Source: a virus. Taken from it: a DNA stretch of 37,139 nt. The DNA lies in IMG/VR virus record IMGVR_UViG_3300024428_000009, positions 1 through 37,139 of that record, one strand, 5' to 3'. Numbering within the stretch: the first letter of the stretch is position 1; the number at the start of each line of letters is the position of its first letter. Positions 5,981-23,635 of the stretch are shown piece after piece. A model generated the notes under the pieces. That model did no database searches, was not told the DNA's origin, and was given only the letters and a program-made list of their open reading frames with translations. Made by a program: the position numbers and the translations under genes.

Positions 5981-6468
5981 GCATGAAAAAATTTAAAGAT
6001 AATATTGATGACTTCTTCAAGTGGGTCAAAGGAACAGAACTTGTCGAACTCGATGATATTGATGTAAGTGAGGATCCTGTTAGACCGGAACTTACATTAG
6101 GTTTTAGAATTACAAAAGGACGTAAAATATTTGGATTAAAATACAACGATGAAATAGAAGCAATCGTTTGTATTGCACTATGCCCTGAAGTTCCATTTAC
6201 TGTAAGAGAAATGGATTACATGTCACAGGCGGCTAATCAAGAAGATCAAAGAGGTGAAATTGTAGTTGCATACACAGTTTGGTCACGTAAGCGTGGAGCA
6301 GGTAGAGAAATAATTACAAAATTAAGAGATTGGACTATTGCAAACAAGTTTAGTAGACTTGTTACACTGTCGCCATTAACACCTATGGCAACACATTTTC
6401 ATATTAAGAATGGAGCAAAGCAAGTCCATATTAATGATGAAACACAGAATTTCGAGTATAAACTATGA
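5977..6468 (+). CDS. GNAT-like acetyltransferase fold protein
   Basis: 163 residues from TTG at 5977, with AGGAA six bases upstream; an in-frame ATG at 5983 is the alternative. The second half has the GNAT order: strand GEIVVAYTVW, a basic turn SRKRGAGREIITKLRDW resembling the Q/RxxGxG/A acetyl-CoA pyrophosphate loop, helix, strand RLVTLSPLTP, then HFHIKNGAKQV like the GF...Y end of GNAT proteins. The acetyl-CoA loop is present but not canonical. Probable N-acetyltransferase with unknown target. Confidence 0.6.
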   Translation: MSMKKFKDNIDDFFKWVKGTELVELDDIDVSEDPVRPELTLGFRITKGRKIFGLKYNDEIEAIVCIALCPEVPFTVREMDYMSQAANQEDQRGEIVVAYTVWSRKRGAGREIITKLRDWTIANKFSRLVTLSPLTPMATHFHIKNGAKQVHINDETQNFEYKL

Positions 6469-11552: not shown

Positions 11553-11560
11553 ATTATACA

Positions 11561-11610
11561 ACGTTCAGCCGATTATAGGCCGGAAGTAAGCATCTATGCT
11601 GAAGGAACGC
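11561..11610 (+). promoter_or_regulatory. Glutamine riboswitch (glnA / Downstream-peptide class)
   Basis: The conserved parts are all present. P1 is CGTTC (11562-11566) with GAACG (11605-11609). P2 is GCC/GGC, followed by the invariant CGGAAGTA. P3 is AGCA/TGCT, then GAAGGAACGC. This matches the three-way-junction glnA and Downstream-peptide RNAs that bind L-glutamine, known from cyanobacteria and marine phages. The ribosome site AAAAAGGAGAG lies 15 bases after the aptamer, so control of translation is plausible. In related marine myophages this class controls small peptides or tmRNA (from memory). Confidence 0.85.
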
Positions 11611-11635
11611 ACTTAACTGTAAAAAGGAGAGTGTA

Positions 11636-11839: not shown

Positions 11840-11868
11840 TTGACAATACGGGTGCAATCTTATATAAT
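11840..11868 (+). promoter_or_regulatory. Sigma70 promoter TTGACA-N17-TATAAT for tRNA-Arg
   Basis: Perfect -35 (11840-11845) and -10 (11863-11868). The predicted start at about 11875 is three bases before the mature tRNA. Confidence 0.88.
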
Positions 11869-11877
11869 AATAACTAT

Positions 11878-11954
11878 GCACCCGTAGCTCATCTGGATAG
11901 AGCGTATGTTTGCGGAACATAAGGTAATAGGTTCGAGTCCTGTCGGGTGCGCCA
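11878..11954 (+). tRNA. tRNA-Arg(GCG)
   Basis: 77 nt with encoded CCA. Acceptor GCACCCG/CGGGTGC, anticodon stem TATGT/ACATA, loop TTGCGGA (anticodon GCG), and T-arm GGTTCGAGTCC. GCG reads CGC and CGU directly. Most bacteria use an ACG tRNA deaminated to ICG by TadA, so a genomic GCG is unusual. CGT is a frequent Arg codon in this window. Confidence 0.92.
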
Positions 11955-12035: not shown

Positions 12036-12851
12036 ATGACGCAAATAATATCCCCAAGTAAATTTACAGAAACAGTTGGCCTTTTAAGGTCATTTTTTTT
12101 GGAAAAAGGATTTCTCGAAGTCCACACACAAAATAGATTAAGCATACTGGCGGCATGCGAAGATCCATTTAACGTAGCAACATACAAGTACGCCGGAGAA
12201 ACATGGCCCTTACCGCAAACAGGCCAAATGTGGCTTGAACACGAATTATTAAGTAGCCCCTCTTCGAAGGGGTTTTTTTGTGTCTCCACTTCCTATAGAC
12301 AGGAACCTAATGCAATACCAGGTAGACATGATATAATATTTCCAATGTTTGAATTTGAGATGCCAGGCAACATAGATGATCTTAAAAAGATGGAATACGA
12401 ACTATGTGAATACTTAGAGTTCAAGAAGCCTACAGAAAAAACTTATGCTGAATGGCAGGCAACTTATAATGTAGAAGGCGAACTTACAGCAGAACACGAA
12501 ACTAAAATGTTTAACGATTACACATCAACAATGATTACAGACTTTCCAGAGTTTACAAGTCCTTTCTGGAACATGAGTAGATATGGCGACGGTATACACA
12601 GCAAGAAGATTGATGTGATACTTGGCGGAATGGAAACTATTGGATCTGCAGAACGTAGTTGTGATGTTGATATGATGCGTGATACATTTCATACAATTAC
12701 AAACGGTGAATACTCAGCATTGTTATTCAAACTGTTTGGTAAAGAAAGAGTTGAAGCAGAACTTGAAAAGTTTTTAGAGTTTGAATTCTTTCCAAGAGTA
12801 GGCGGTGGTATTGGTATGACACGTATGATTGCGGCCTTAGATACGAAGTAA
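12036..12851 (+). CDS. AsnRS/AspRS-like class II aminoacyl-tRNA synthetase catalytic protein
   Basis: 271 residues from ATG 12036 (AGAAGGAAAAG upstream); a GTG at 11988 in frame would lie across the terminator. It has the class II catalytic core of the Asp/Asn/Lys group: WPLPQTGQMWLE (substrate loop, cf. AspRS QSPQ and AsnRS SGQ), motif 2 STSYRQEP ... GRHDIIFPMFEFE (Arg88, Glu90, Arg97, His98), and motif 3 GGGIGMTRM (Arg263). No anticodon-binding OB domain precedes the core, so it resembles the stand-alone AsnRS-derived asparagine synthetases (AS-AR/AsnA type). A tRNA with Asn anticodon follows by six bases. It could charge that tRNA, make asparagine, or transfer an amino acid to something else. 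Confidence 0.8.
   Translation: MTQIISPSKFTETVGLLRSFFLEKGFLEVHTQNRLSILAACEDPFNVATYKYAGETWPLPQTGQMWLEHELLSSPSSKGFFCVSTSYRQEPNAIPGRHDIIFPMFEFEMPGNIDDLKKMEYELCEYLEFKKPTEKTYAEWQATYNVEGELTAEHETKMFNDYTSTMITDFPEFTSPFWNMSRYGDGIHSKKIDVILGGMETIGSAERSCDVDMMRDTFHTITNGEYSALLFKLFGKERVEAELEKFLEFEFFPRVGGGIGMTRMIAALDTK
12257..12279 (+). terminator. Terminator-like hairpin inside the synthetase-like gene
   Basis: CCCCT (12257-12261) pairs with AGGGG (12268-12272) around CTTCGA, followed by seven T (12273-12279). It lies in the coding sequence for SSPSSKGFF. By form it is a complete intrinsic terminator; translation would normally mask it. Confidence 0.5.
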
Positions 12852-12857
12852 CAATAA

Positions 12858-12957
12858 TCTGGGGTGGTGAAATTGGTAGACACGCACGATTGTTTCTCGT
12901 GTGATGAATGACGGCAAATTATTTATCGTGGAGGTTCGAGTCCTTCCCCCAGAGCCA
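12858..12957 (+). tRNA. Type II tRNA with GUU (Asn) anticodon
   Basis: 100 nt with encoded CCA. The acceptor TCTGGGG/CCCCAGA gives U1-A72 and discriminator G73. The D-arm (GGTGAAATTGGTAGACAC) is like tRNA-Leu. The anticodon stem CACGA/TCGTG encloses TTGTTTC, i.e. anticodon GTT with U37 and C38. The variable arm is a 7-bp stem (GATGAAT/ATTTATC) with an 11-base loop. T-arm GGAGG/CCTTC around TTCGAGT. The body is leucine/serine-type, but the anticodon, U1-A72 and G73 are those of tRNA-Asn. A normal tRNA-Asn has a short variable loop and A37. It follows the AsnRS-like gene by six bases. Confidence 0.82.
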
Positions 12958-20455: not shown

Positions 20456-23400
20456 TTAGATAATATCGATTGCTTGTGCGGCAATTACTTGCCAACCGTT
20501 TGCACCATAGATCATTGTAACTGAATCATTAACAGCATCCATTGTAATTGATGTACCGTTTGCAAAGGTAGTTGGAGTAATAGTTGCGTTACCGCCGTCT
20601 ACTACCATTACAATTATTTTCATCTGACCTATTGCACCATTTGCCAATGTAAATGTATCTGCGCCAGTTGTTGTAATTTCAGTGTATAATGTTGTTAGGT
20701 TAATTGCACCTGGACCACTAATAGTTTGTCTACTACCAGTAAAGGCACCTGCCGCTGTTAACGGACCTTGTATGATTACTTCACCTGAAGTTGCTCCAGG
20801 TTCAATAGTAATATCTCCAGCCGCTCCAGCACCCTGTTGTATCTTAGTTGTTGATACATAATGAGAAGTACTTACAGATATTGGCCTGTCAACTGAGATC
20901 CAATTTTGAGTGTCATCAAAGTAGAACATTCTCGTACCGTCTTCGTTGTTAAACTCTAATCTGTTATTGTTATTTGTAATGGTTCCTGCTAAAGTGGCAC
21001 CATCATCACTGTAAAATGCTAAATCACCATTGATCTGAGTATCAACTAAACTTAATGATCCATCTACCTGTTGACGATAAATTTCCCAAGTATTAAGATG
21101 TGTTCTATAGAATGTGTATTCATATATGTTTAAAGAATTTATTGCACTTGAAACAGCACCTAAATCTGTTGGCGTCTGTGTAACACCATTAACTTCTATC
21201 GTAGGAATATAAGCAGTACCACCTTGTACTATATGTATTCTTACACGTCTTACTCTTTGTGTACTTGTTTCAAGTCCTGTAAAGTTTGCAACAAGAGCGC
21301 CGCTTGGTGCGTTCCAATAAACGTTCTGTGTGTCAGTTGTATCAATTTCATATGTTCCAGTTGATACGTTTGTGTACAACATTTTTTCTTGAATACCTGG
21401 ACTTGAACGTAATTCTCTTTCAAGTGTTACCGGACTTGCTATTGTAAAAGGTTGTGCCGCATTGGCTACGTTAGCAAGTTTACCATTTGCGTCTACACCA
21501 ACACCATTATTAAATTTAATAACACCTGTACCTGACATGGTAATTGAAGTATCTGATGCAATAGTTAATGCACCTGTTTTGTTTATGTTTGCATTTACTT
21601 CACCAACTATCTGGTTAGCCGTAGCATCGACTAATTTTGATGTACCGTTCGTTCCGTATGCATCACTCATCATCTTGAAGCCTGTGATGTTACCAGCAGT
21701 AATTGTACCTACAGTATCTGTAAAGGTTCCTATCTCAGCGTTAGCAGTTGTTACTTGTGAGTTATTAACTTCTCCTAATACTGTACCTGTGTTACCATCA
21801 ATAACTGTTGAACTGTCATCAATAGCAAACACTGAACCTTTTAGGTCGCCTACAAATCCTTCGCGAGCAAAAATTGGATTATTAATAAATGGTGTTCTCG
21901 CATCAATACCTGTGTTACCATCAATATATACCGTATTTGTTCCATCTGCCTTTGTTCCAATAAAAATATCATTGCCGCCTTCAGCAATTATATTAATTGT
22001 ACCATTTTCTGCAATAAGATTAAGAAACCCTCCAGTTGTAGCGTTTACGTTTATAGTTCCTGTAGAGTTAAGGTTTATACCACTTGTTGTTGTAGCAGTA
22101 TTAAACTGTGATGAAGTTACAGTAAATGGAGTATTACCTACATTAATATCAGCAGTAAGATAACCGTTGACAGCGTCTACAAGTTGTGTGCTGTCATCAG
22201 CAAATACACTACCAGTTATTTCACCGTCGAATGTTCCTTGTAGGTGTCCGTGGAATGTGTTAGCATAGACATTGTCGTATGGCTCACTGCCTCTACCAAT
22301 GTCATTAACACCAAGTGGTGCAAGGTCACGTGTTCTTACTGTACCAGTACCGCTTTCAGTTCTTAGTACAGGATTATCTGTAATCTCAATTATTTCATAG
22401 TATGCTTGAAGTTCAAGTGTAATAGTTCCTGTGTTACCTGAGATGGTAAACACTGCTCTGTATTGTCCGCCACTGTTATCTGCTTCATTGTATAAGTTTG
22501 AAAACTCGTATGGTACACCTGCTACACCTGAAACTGTATCAAGTGTTGTCCAAGTAACACCGTTAAATCTTTGTATACTTGCCGATACTGCTGTTGCAGA
22601 TGTTCCACTATCTAATTGGTAACCTACTGTATATTGCAGTACGCCTTTAGATGGTTTACTGTTAAATGTAAATGTCTTTGTAACAGTGTTAGATGTAATT
22701 TCTCTTTGATCTATTGCAAGTCTAAGTGCATCGCCTACTGTACCAGTACCTAAAAATTCTGATGTTGGAGAAACAAATCCATCTTCAGTTGTACTGCTTG
22801 TGATGTTTCCAACTTCAATGTCTTGTATGTAAAGTTGGTTAGTAGTAATAGCATTTCTTTTTGTTACAGTATGTAACGTATCTATTTCTGCTACTGCAAA
22901 AGAACCGATTTCAATTTCGCTTCCGTTCTTTCTTGTTAGTTGTATACCACCAGCCGCTGATAATTCAACGTGTGTTGTTGCGGCGTTTACATCTGTTAAT
23001 TCTATTTTTGTTGTTCCTGGAGGTACATCTAAATTGTAATCAACATCAATCATCATAATGTCGTTACCAGCAGTGGTTGTTATAGTACCACCCTGTCCAA
23101 CGTTATCGTGTGATCCGTAATAAAATGTTGTTGGTGCTGAATCGTTTAGTTCAAGTCTTATTTTTCTTGTTGTTGCACCTGTGAATCCAAGTTTGTAATT
23201 GGCCTTAGTTACTGCTACATCATCAAGCAAGTAAGTTACACCTGTTTCGTATTCTTCTCCGCTGATAGCACCACTTACAGCACCGTCGGCTGTGTTACTG
23301 AATACCATTGGACTTAGATAACCACCGTATGATGAGTTGGTAGCATCAGTTTGATCAAAAGTATATACTTGACCTTTTTGAAGTGTAAGTGCTTTTTGCT

Positions 23401-23635
23401 CAACACCGTCAAGGTAGTAAGCACCCATTGCCACACCGCCACCTGTATCAAAACCTACTGTAACAGTTATAGTCGCACCTGGACTTACAGTTGGTACATT
23501 CCAACTGATTCCATCACCTCTGCGAATACTTAAACTATCCTGTGTATTATCTGCTTCAAGTGTTTGCTCCAGAGTTGTACCGTCAGGAGAGTAAAGTTTA
23601 ATGTATCTAAATATATCGTAAATTGCTGTGGGCAT
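20456..23635 (-). CDS. Large tail-fibre-like structural protein
   Basis: 1059 residues on the minus strand. ATG at 23635 is preceded by TAGGAAC and a late motif. Thr/Gly/Asn/Asp-rich beta repeats run throughout. Modules such as TGSVFADDSTQLVDAVNG and GSVFAIDDSSTVIDGNTG are also in the fibre at 35556. The C-terminus (VDGGNATITPTTFANGTSIT ... VTMIYGANGWQVIAAQ) is like tail-tip domains of marine phages. Probable host-recognition or side fibre. It is the only large gene on this strand, which hints at exchange or swapping of adhesion modules. Confidence 0.8.
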   Translation of the reverse strand: MPTAIYDIFRYIKLYSPDGTTLEQTLEADNTQDSLSIRRGDGISWNVPTVSPGATITVTVGFDTGGGVAMGAYYLDGVEQKALTLQKGQVYTFDQTDATNSSYGGYLSPMVFSNTADGAVSGAISGEEYETGVTYLLDDVAVTKANYKLGFTGATTRKIRLELNDSAPTTFYYGSHDNVGQGGTITTTAGNDIMMIDVDYNLDVPPGTTKIELTDVNAATTHVELSAAGGIQLTRKNGSEIEIGSFAVAEIDTLHTVTKRNAITTNQLYIQDIEVGNITSSTTEDGFVSPTSEFLGTGTVGDALRLAIDQREITSNTVTKTFTFNSKPSKGVLQYTVGYQLDSGTSATAVSASIQRFNGVTWTTLDTVSGVAGVPYEFSNLYNEADNSGGQYRAVFTISGNTGTITLELQAYYEIIEITDNPVLRTESGTGTVRTRDLAPLGVNDIGRGSEPYDNVYANTFHGHLQGTFDGEITGSVFADDSTQLVDAVNGYLTADINVGNTPFTVTSSQFNTATTTSGINLNSTGTINVNATTGGFLNLIAENGTINIIAEGGNDIFIGTKADGTNTVYIDGNTGIDARTPFINNPIFAREGFVGDLKGSVFAIDDSSTVIDGNTGTVLGEVNNSQVTTANAEIGTFTDTVGTITAGNITGFKMMSDAYGTNGTSKLVDATANQIVGEVNANINKTGALTIASDTSITMSGTGVIKFNNGVGVDANGKLANVANAAQPFTIASPVTLERELRSSPGIQEKMLYTNVSTGTYEIDTTDTQNVYWNAPSGALVANFTGLETSTQRVRRVRIHIVQGGTAYIPTIEVNGVTQTPTDLGAVSSAINSLNIYEYTFYRTHLNTWEIYRQQVDGSLSLVDTQINGDLAFYSDDGATLAGTITNNNNRLEFNNEDGTRMFYFDDTQNWISVDRPISVSTSHYVSTTKIQQGAGAAGDITIEPGATSGEVIIQGPLTAAGAFTGSRQTISGPGAINLTTLYTEITTTGADTFTLANGAIGQMKIIVMVVDGGNATITPTTFANGTSITMDAVNDSVTMIYGANGWQVIAAQAIDII

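Follow-up and report, generated by a model that had tools for sequence, protein, structure and literature searches.

Results and Discussion

In the viral genome fragment analysed here, which comprises 37,139 nucleotides and is referred to as the window, a gene for a stand-alone, class IIb aminoacyl-tRNA-synthetase-like catalytic core is directly followed by the gene of a type II tRNA with the asparagine anticodon GUU. Marine T4-like phages and their relatives probably select the two genes together as a unit; they are found side by side in nearly all of the sampled viral loci that encode the enzyme and have sufficient downstream DNA. We tentatively interpret them as a phage-borne pair that may put asparagine on a dedicated tRNA via acceptor-end identity, a reading that we regard as possible rather than probable.

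Organization of the locus

The enzyme is encoded at 12036..12851 on the plus strand (271 aa), and its stop codon, which ends at 12851, is separated by a gap of 6 nt from the tRNA gene starting at 12858. Upstream, a putative sigma-70-type promoter (TTGACA, 17 nt, TATAAT; 11840..11868, plus strand) was predicted by consensus match alone, with 12/12 matching positions, and is followed by an ordinary tRNA-Arg gene with the anticodon GCG (11878..11954, plus strand; ARAGORN; Rfam 61.5 bits) as the first gene of the presumed unit. Because the predicted promoter, the tRNA-Arg, the enzyme and the type II tRNA are arranged consecutively on one strand, they are likely to be expressed as one transcript.

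Several further elements were detected in the window. A glutamine riboswitch (RF01739) is located at 11560-11613, about 0.4 kb upstream of the enzyme gene, and is also present near the enzyme/tRNA pair in some relatives (L003, L004 and L021). Inside the enzyme reading frame, a terminator-like hairpin with a T run (12255-12280) might attenuate transcription of the downstream type II tRNA; when the first 80 viral loci were scanned with a loose pattern for such an internal hairpin, 14 matched. No pyr genes adjoin the pair in this genome fragment. An open frame of 1059 aa on the minus strand (20456-23635), which runs opposite to the direction of its neighbours, has no Pfam match.

The tRNA combines a type II body with an asparagine anticodon

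The gene at 12858..12957 (plus strand) encodes a genuine, complete type II tRNA. Its acceptor stem (UCUGGGG/CCCCAGA), which begins with the pair U1-A72, is followed by G73 and an encoded CCA; the D stem consists of 3 bp with GG, and a T arm is present. The anticodon arm reads CACGA-UUGUUUC-UCGUG, with the loop (positions 32-38) at 12890..12896 (plus strand), GUU at 12892-12894 and U37 at 12895, and the variable region (12902..12929, plus strand) of 28 nt contains a 9-bp hairpin. An earlier note on this DNA, which was made from the sequence alone, had described the long variable arm, GUU, U1-A72, G73 and U37, and had suggested an Infernal run as a check. Both the cloverleaf and this run, in which the Rfam tRNA model matched 12858-12954 with 44.7 bits (gathering score 29) and aligned GUU with the anticodon, corroborate the description. 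A covariance model of our own, whose training includes the window sequence via L001, gave 94.6 bits.

The variable region spans 11-38 nt across the enzyme-linked tRNAs. ARAGORN labels the window tRNA as tRNA-Glu with the anticodon CTC because it shifts the anticodon loop, and this label was ruled out by the Rfam alignment; in relatives with shorter variable arms, ARAGORN itself gives tRNA-Asn (GTT). An ordinary tRNA-Leu or tRNA-Ser with a misread anticodon, which the earlier note had named as a result that would speak against its view, was ruled out, since all 98 distinct copies have paired arms, GUU and G73 and also carry U1-A72. Genuine Leu tRNAs that were picked up by the same covariance model have A73, unlike the enzyme-linked tRNAs. 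Likewise, covariation of the cloverleaf ruled out a tRNA pseudogene: in 50 diverse copies, 99.7% of the base-pair cells are paired and double-sided changes occur in 19 of 23 pairs, and none of 500 shuffles was as good. Among the features of a tRNA-Asn, GUU and G73 are thus present in 98/98 distinct enzyme-linked copies, while the type I body with a short variable loop, U33 and A37 do not characterize these tRNAs. To our knowledge, the combination of a type II body and an asparagine anticodon is known from no ordinary genome.

The acceptor end is fixed and the anticodon loop is relaxed beside the enzyme

When we compared the enzyme-linked tRNAs, U1-A72, G34-U35-U36 and G73 were unchanged in all 98 distinct copies of the forward search, and U1-A72 and G73 were unchanged in 92/92 copies of the reverse search among the matches listed. 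Among the 98 copies, the anticodon loop has U37 in 89, A37 in 5 and C37 in 4, and C33 in 9; the 36 other tRNAs in the same viral loci all have U33 and a purine at position 37. Type II GUU tRNAs also occur without the enzyme. Among the matches listed, there are 34 distinct solo tRNA-Asn of this type on other viral contigs (e.g. L315, L320, L331, L342, L343, L348 and L400), which have GUU, G73, a short variable arm and, in 34/34, A37, and of which 27 have a U-A and 7 an A-U pair at 1:72. In the reverse search, again among the matches listed, U37 was found 62 times with and never without the enzyme, and A37 28 times with and 34 times without it (p=2e-13, a value that is partly confounded and inflated by the common descent of the phages). 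Despite this caveat of descent, the type II GUU tRNA alongside a separate second enzyme branch (L096, L158) has U37 as well.

Enzyme and tRNA are conserved together in viruses

Relatives of the enzyme are encoded on at least 598 viral stretches. We sampled 168 viral loci in a forward search and looked for a tRNA within 500 nt after the enzyme, using a scanner that only required a type II body and left positions 1/72, 34-36 and 73 unpreset. In 153 of the 161 loci with sufficient downstream DNA a type II tRNA was found, its anticodon was GUU in all 153, and the median gap between the enzyme stop codon and the tRNA was 8 nt. In a reverse search by the tRNA pattern alone, 92 of 126 decidable distinct type II GUU tRNAs among the matches listed were located behind the enzyme and 34 had no enzyme in the fetched stretch; the remainder were contig edges, and these proportions are approximate and pattern-dependent. 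The conservation of the pair in relatives, on which the earlier note had made its view depend, was hence recovered from both directions. In the Prochlorococcus phages P-SSM7 and P-SSM5, an annotated 'tRNA ligase' is directly followed by an annotated 'tRNA-Asn'. The record of P-SSM2 (L082, AY939844.2) places tRNA-Asn about 2 kb off the actual type II tRNA, which is located directly 3' of the 'tRNA ligase' gene, and this placement is probably a coordinate error.

A few loci deviate. In L158, a contig of a Methylophilaceae bin, the type II GUU tRNA beside the enzyme (6077-6167) is mispaired at 1:72 and 2:71 and has A73, and is degraded or recombined. On two contigs of 89 kb and 187 kb of one enzyme-bearing phage (L037, L038), no type II GUU tRNA was found by pattern, and the tRNA may therefore not be strictly required. 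Viral scans with two giant-phage homologs as queries returned nothing or two loci, with the tRNA in neither. Alphaproteobacterial-type (permuted) tmRNA genes are located near the enzyme in L036 (2559-2932, minus strand), L058 (1072-1437), L066 (964-1329) and L069 (1212-1842, minus strand), hinting at alphaproteobacterial hosts.

The enzyme is an AsnRS-like class IIb core outside the AsnRS clade

The only Pfam match of the enzyme is PF00152 ('class II D, K, N'; E=3.7e-15), which spans residues 13-268 of the 271 aa and thus leaves the protein without an OB-fold. Consistently, its AlphaFold2 model (pLDDT 93.9; alignment of 66 sequences) opens with a helix at residue 7 and not with an N-terminal OB-fold. 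The protein also matches phrog_29758, annotated as 'unknown function'. As had been proposed, a class II core that lacks an anticodon-binding domain is hence encoded six bases upstream of the tRNA.

The best structural match of the model is human AsnRS (Z 27.2, 2.1 A over 246 residues; VIA-align), followed by archaeal AspRS, EpmA and archaeal asparagine synthetase with Z values of 23-26; AsnRS and AspRS lead the 961 PDB chains that reach a Z of 8 or more. Since values of 23-27 are too close together, the class IIb families are not separable by structural match. In the phylogenetic tree, the enzyme family forms its own clade (support 100/99) outside AsnRS, AspRS, LysRS and EpmA, and AsnRS is separate with 100/99; AsnA was represented by one very divergent E. 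coli sequence with a branch length of about 5, which calls for a long-branch warning. With 26.1 bits, the window enzyme does not reach the asnS cut-off of 342.6 bits (TIGR00457). A degraded full-length AsnRS was ruled out by the separate clade and by the lack of any trace of an OB domain.

Invariant residues of the family are E42, Q64, E68, R88, H98, E106, E108, R207 and R263. These include the class II arginines of motif 2 (R88) and motif 3 (R263) in an antiparallel class II fold, and two positions of the asparagine pocket which align with AsnRS, i.e. E68, the glutamate of SGQLxxE, and the side-chain arginine R207; AspRS carries a lysine one position before the glutamate that aligns with E68. 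The motif 2 loop is present, with IF where AsnRS has EF, so that the EF glutamate is missing. Motif 3 (GGGIGxTR) has no acidic residue before the arginine and is close to GGGIGQSR of AsnA, and together with C41-E42 it resembles E. coli AsnA more than AsnRS. The enzyme is therefore AsnRS-like in fold and pocket and AsnA-like in motif 3, and by the tests made it could be assigned to neither. The label of an AsnRS-like protein that it had received from its sequence holds for fold and pocket, but not for family membership or for the signature, which is non-canonical.

Cellular homologs are linked to pyrimidine genes

Homologs with 50-64% identity to the enzyme are encoded in bacterial and archaeal genome assemblies and, except for a few phage-like contigs, have no type II GUU tRNA alongside. 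In 20 genomes with a cellular homolog, this tRNA was absent by pattern, with only chance-like matches; raw covariance-model matches in cellular genomes were rejected, as the loci inspected were tRNA-Leu. The tRNA-less homologs adjoin pyrD, pyrF or pyrE (L087-L166, e.g. L122, 4965-5834; genomes G001-G020 and G089-G177). Pfam searches of 60 co-directional neighbours of cellular homologs identified pyrF in 7, pyrD in 6 and a phosphoribosyltransferase in 3 cases.

Among 199 genomes of one order, 8 have the homolog. An ATCase match is missing in 8/8 of these carriers and in 16/191 of the others (p=1.4e-8), and a DHODH gene is located within about 0.4 kb of the homolog in 8/8; for one of the eight (G177) the lack of ATCase was read from its absence among 175 matches listed. 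ATCase was over the cut-off in 0/12 tested carriers, 1 of which belongs to that order, and in 14/14 positive controls. The p-values for the ATCase link are only indicative because neighbouring sequences are not independent. PyrC of the dimeric type was found in 0/12 carriers, and the multi type was over the cut-off in one genome and below it in three large ones. Judged by these genomic associations, i.e. the neighbouring pyr genes and the absence of ATCase, the older function of the enzyme family was probably metabolic and pyrimidine-linked, and the cellular homologs are candidates for a missing enzyme of pyrimidine synthesis. Phage and cellular proteins share 68 positions that are invariant in both groups, including the catalytic ones, and a comparison of the two groups revealed no gained basic residues in the phage clade that would mark a tRNA-binding surface. 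The phage P-SSM7 carries pyrE, and no pyrD, pyrB or pyrF was found in its annotated parts that were examined.

Comparison with known systems

The enzyme shares its core fold, the SGQLxxE glutamate and the side-chain arginine with the catalytic domain of AsnRS (TIGR00457), but differs from it in lacking the N-terminal OB-fold, the EF glutamate of motif 2 and an acidic residue in motif 3, and in forming a clade of its own. Like the phage enzyme, AsnA and the archaeal AS-AR (PDB 3p8t/3reu/3rex) stand alone as class IIb cores and lack an anticodon domain; the AS-AR structure matches the model with a Z of 23.6, and E. coli AsnA shares with the phage enzyme the motif 3 pattern GGGIGx(S/T)R and the CE dipeptide; AsnA is, however, not accompanied by a tRNA. 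EpmA/GenX, a LysRS-like protein which lysylates EF-P, is likewise a stand-alone class IIb core (Z 23.7), but its clade is separate from the phage enzyme and adjoins LysRS; EpmA modifies a protein and has no tRNA partner. A parallel in gene arrangement is provided by pyrrolysyl-tRNA synthetase with tRNA-Pyl and other dedicated pairs, in which an oddly shaped tRNA is encoded beside a class II enzyme. PylRS does not need the anticodon for recognition. In contrast to tRNA-Pyl, the phage tRNA has a sense GUU anticodon and a type II body, the pair is viral, and there is no sign of a new amino acid. An altered anticodon loop is also a feature of phage tRNAs that evade tRNA-targeting defences (PMC10264068, PMC11555353); those reports describe no synthetase-like gene dedicated to the tRNA, and the body type of the present tRNA differs.

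Possible functions of the pair

According to the reading that we tentatively prefer, the minimal class IIb enzyme would activate asparagine by adenylation and load it onto the adjoining type II tRNA. Recognition would rely on the long-armed body together with U1-A72 and G73 at the acceptor end; the anticodon would be left unread because the enzyme has no domain to read it. GUU would be retained so that the charged product can decode AAU and AAC, and an altered loop (U37, sometimes C33) might be tolerated in this type II tRNA because recognition of the loop by the host would no longer be needed. A likely benefit would be the evasion of those enzymes or nucleases of the host that recognize the anticodon loop of tRNA-Asn. 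The adjacency, the co-occurrence in both search directions, the fixed acceptor end and the relaxed loop are all explained by a charging pair. Left unexplained are the active site, which is unchanged, and the odd decoding fitness of U37 and C33. These two bases are poor for ribosomal decoding and thus count against a charging pair, as do the cellular homologs, which share all catalytic positions, are pyr-linked and lack the tRNA, the missing gain of basic residues in phages, the mispaired, A73-bearing tRNA of L158 and the enzyme without tRNA in L037/L038.

The main rival is a metabolic (auxiliary) gene of the pyrimidine-linked family, next to which an independent type II tRNA-Asn would serve translation. 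In cells, adenylate chemistry on aspartate, asparagine or a derivative could replace ATCase and perhaps dihydroorotase, in accordance with the pyr neighbours, the ATCase-less carriers with a nearby DHODH gene, the identical catalytic positions, the AsnA-like motif 3 and CE dipeptide, pyrE in P-SSM7 and the occurrence of type II GUU tRNAs without the enzyme. We nevertheless consider this reading rather unlikely. It accounts for the enzyme family but not for the tRNA, as it leaves unexplained why only enzyme-linked tRNAs have U37, why their U1-A72 pair never changes and why 95% adjacency persists over very diverged phages; the lack of pyrD, pyrB and pyrF in the examined parts of P-SSM7 also speaks against it. 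Alternatively, the tRNA would be a non-decoding carrier, loaded with asparagine by the host AsnRS, or by ND-AspRS and GatCAB, and kept off the ribosome by its poor decoding (U37, C33), from which the phage enzyme would take asparagine for metabolism, e.g. for pyrimidine precursors. According to PMC9976931 and PMC4206432, U1-A72 is an amidotransferase determinant and U20a an antideterminant, and the invariant GUU, G73 and U1-A72 of the phage tRNA correspond to the identity set given there for ND-AspRS/GatCAB; U20a appears to be absent from the phage tRNA. A carrier also agrees with the finding that position 37 is relaxed exclusively in enzyme-linked tRNAs, with the family's link to pyrimidines and with the alphaproteobacterial-type tmRNA in several carriers of the enzyme, which hints at such hosts. 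However, it requires a release step that is purely hypothetical, the host's own tRNA-Asn could do the same job, and AsnB, over the cut-off in 12/19 tRNA-less carriers, is not consistently present, which makes a carrier quite unlikely in our view. A more specific form of this reading, in which the dedicated, non-decoding type II tRNA would carry asparagine or hand it over to an AsnRS-related enzyme in a pyrimidine pathway yet to be described, with dihydroorotate made in the absence of ATCase, so that charging feeds nucleotides for viral DNA, is in itself a distinctly improbable proposal. Very unlikely, finally, is an uncharged decoy or regulatory RNA, which would titrate a host enzyme or nuclease that reads tRNA-Asn or would regulate the enzyme. 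Its aberrant anticodon loop and the proposal that phage tRNAs with anticodon-loop changes resist tRNA-targeting defences (PMC10264068) are in line with such a role, but the full cloverleaf, G73 and GUU under strong covariation argue for a charged tRNA, a decoy does not need a synthetase core next door, and it is only beside the enzyme that the identity elements of the acceptor end are fixed. Of the three roles suggested in the earlier note, the charging pair and an enzyme with a tRNA cofactor hence survive, and the plain decoy has become weaker.

In the open-access literature we found no published description of the enzyme/tRNA pair beyond genome annotations, and none of a synthetase-like pyrimidine enzyme. 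The pair can be described as a synthetase-like enzyme with a dedicated tRNA, and it would be categorically new if a coupling to a carrier function or to pyrimidines were shown. Found in hundreds of viral contigs, the class II synthetase core and the tRNA that accompanies it represent a candidate orthogonal pair, in which the enzyme is predicted to be independent of the anticodon and the tRNA is a type II tRNA-Asn. The pair makes the reason why phages carry tRNAs testable, and the cellular homologs do the same for the idea that a relative of the synthetases replaces ATCase in bacteria without it.
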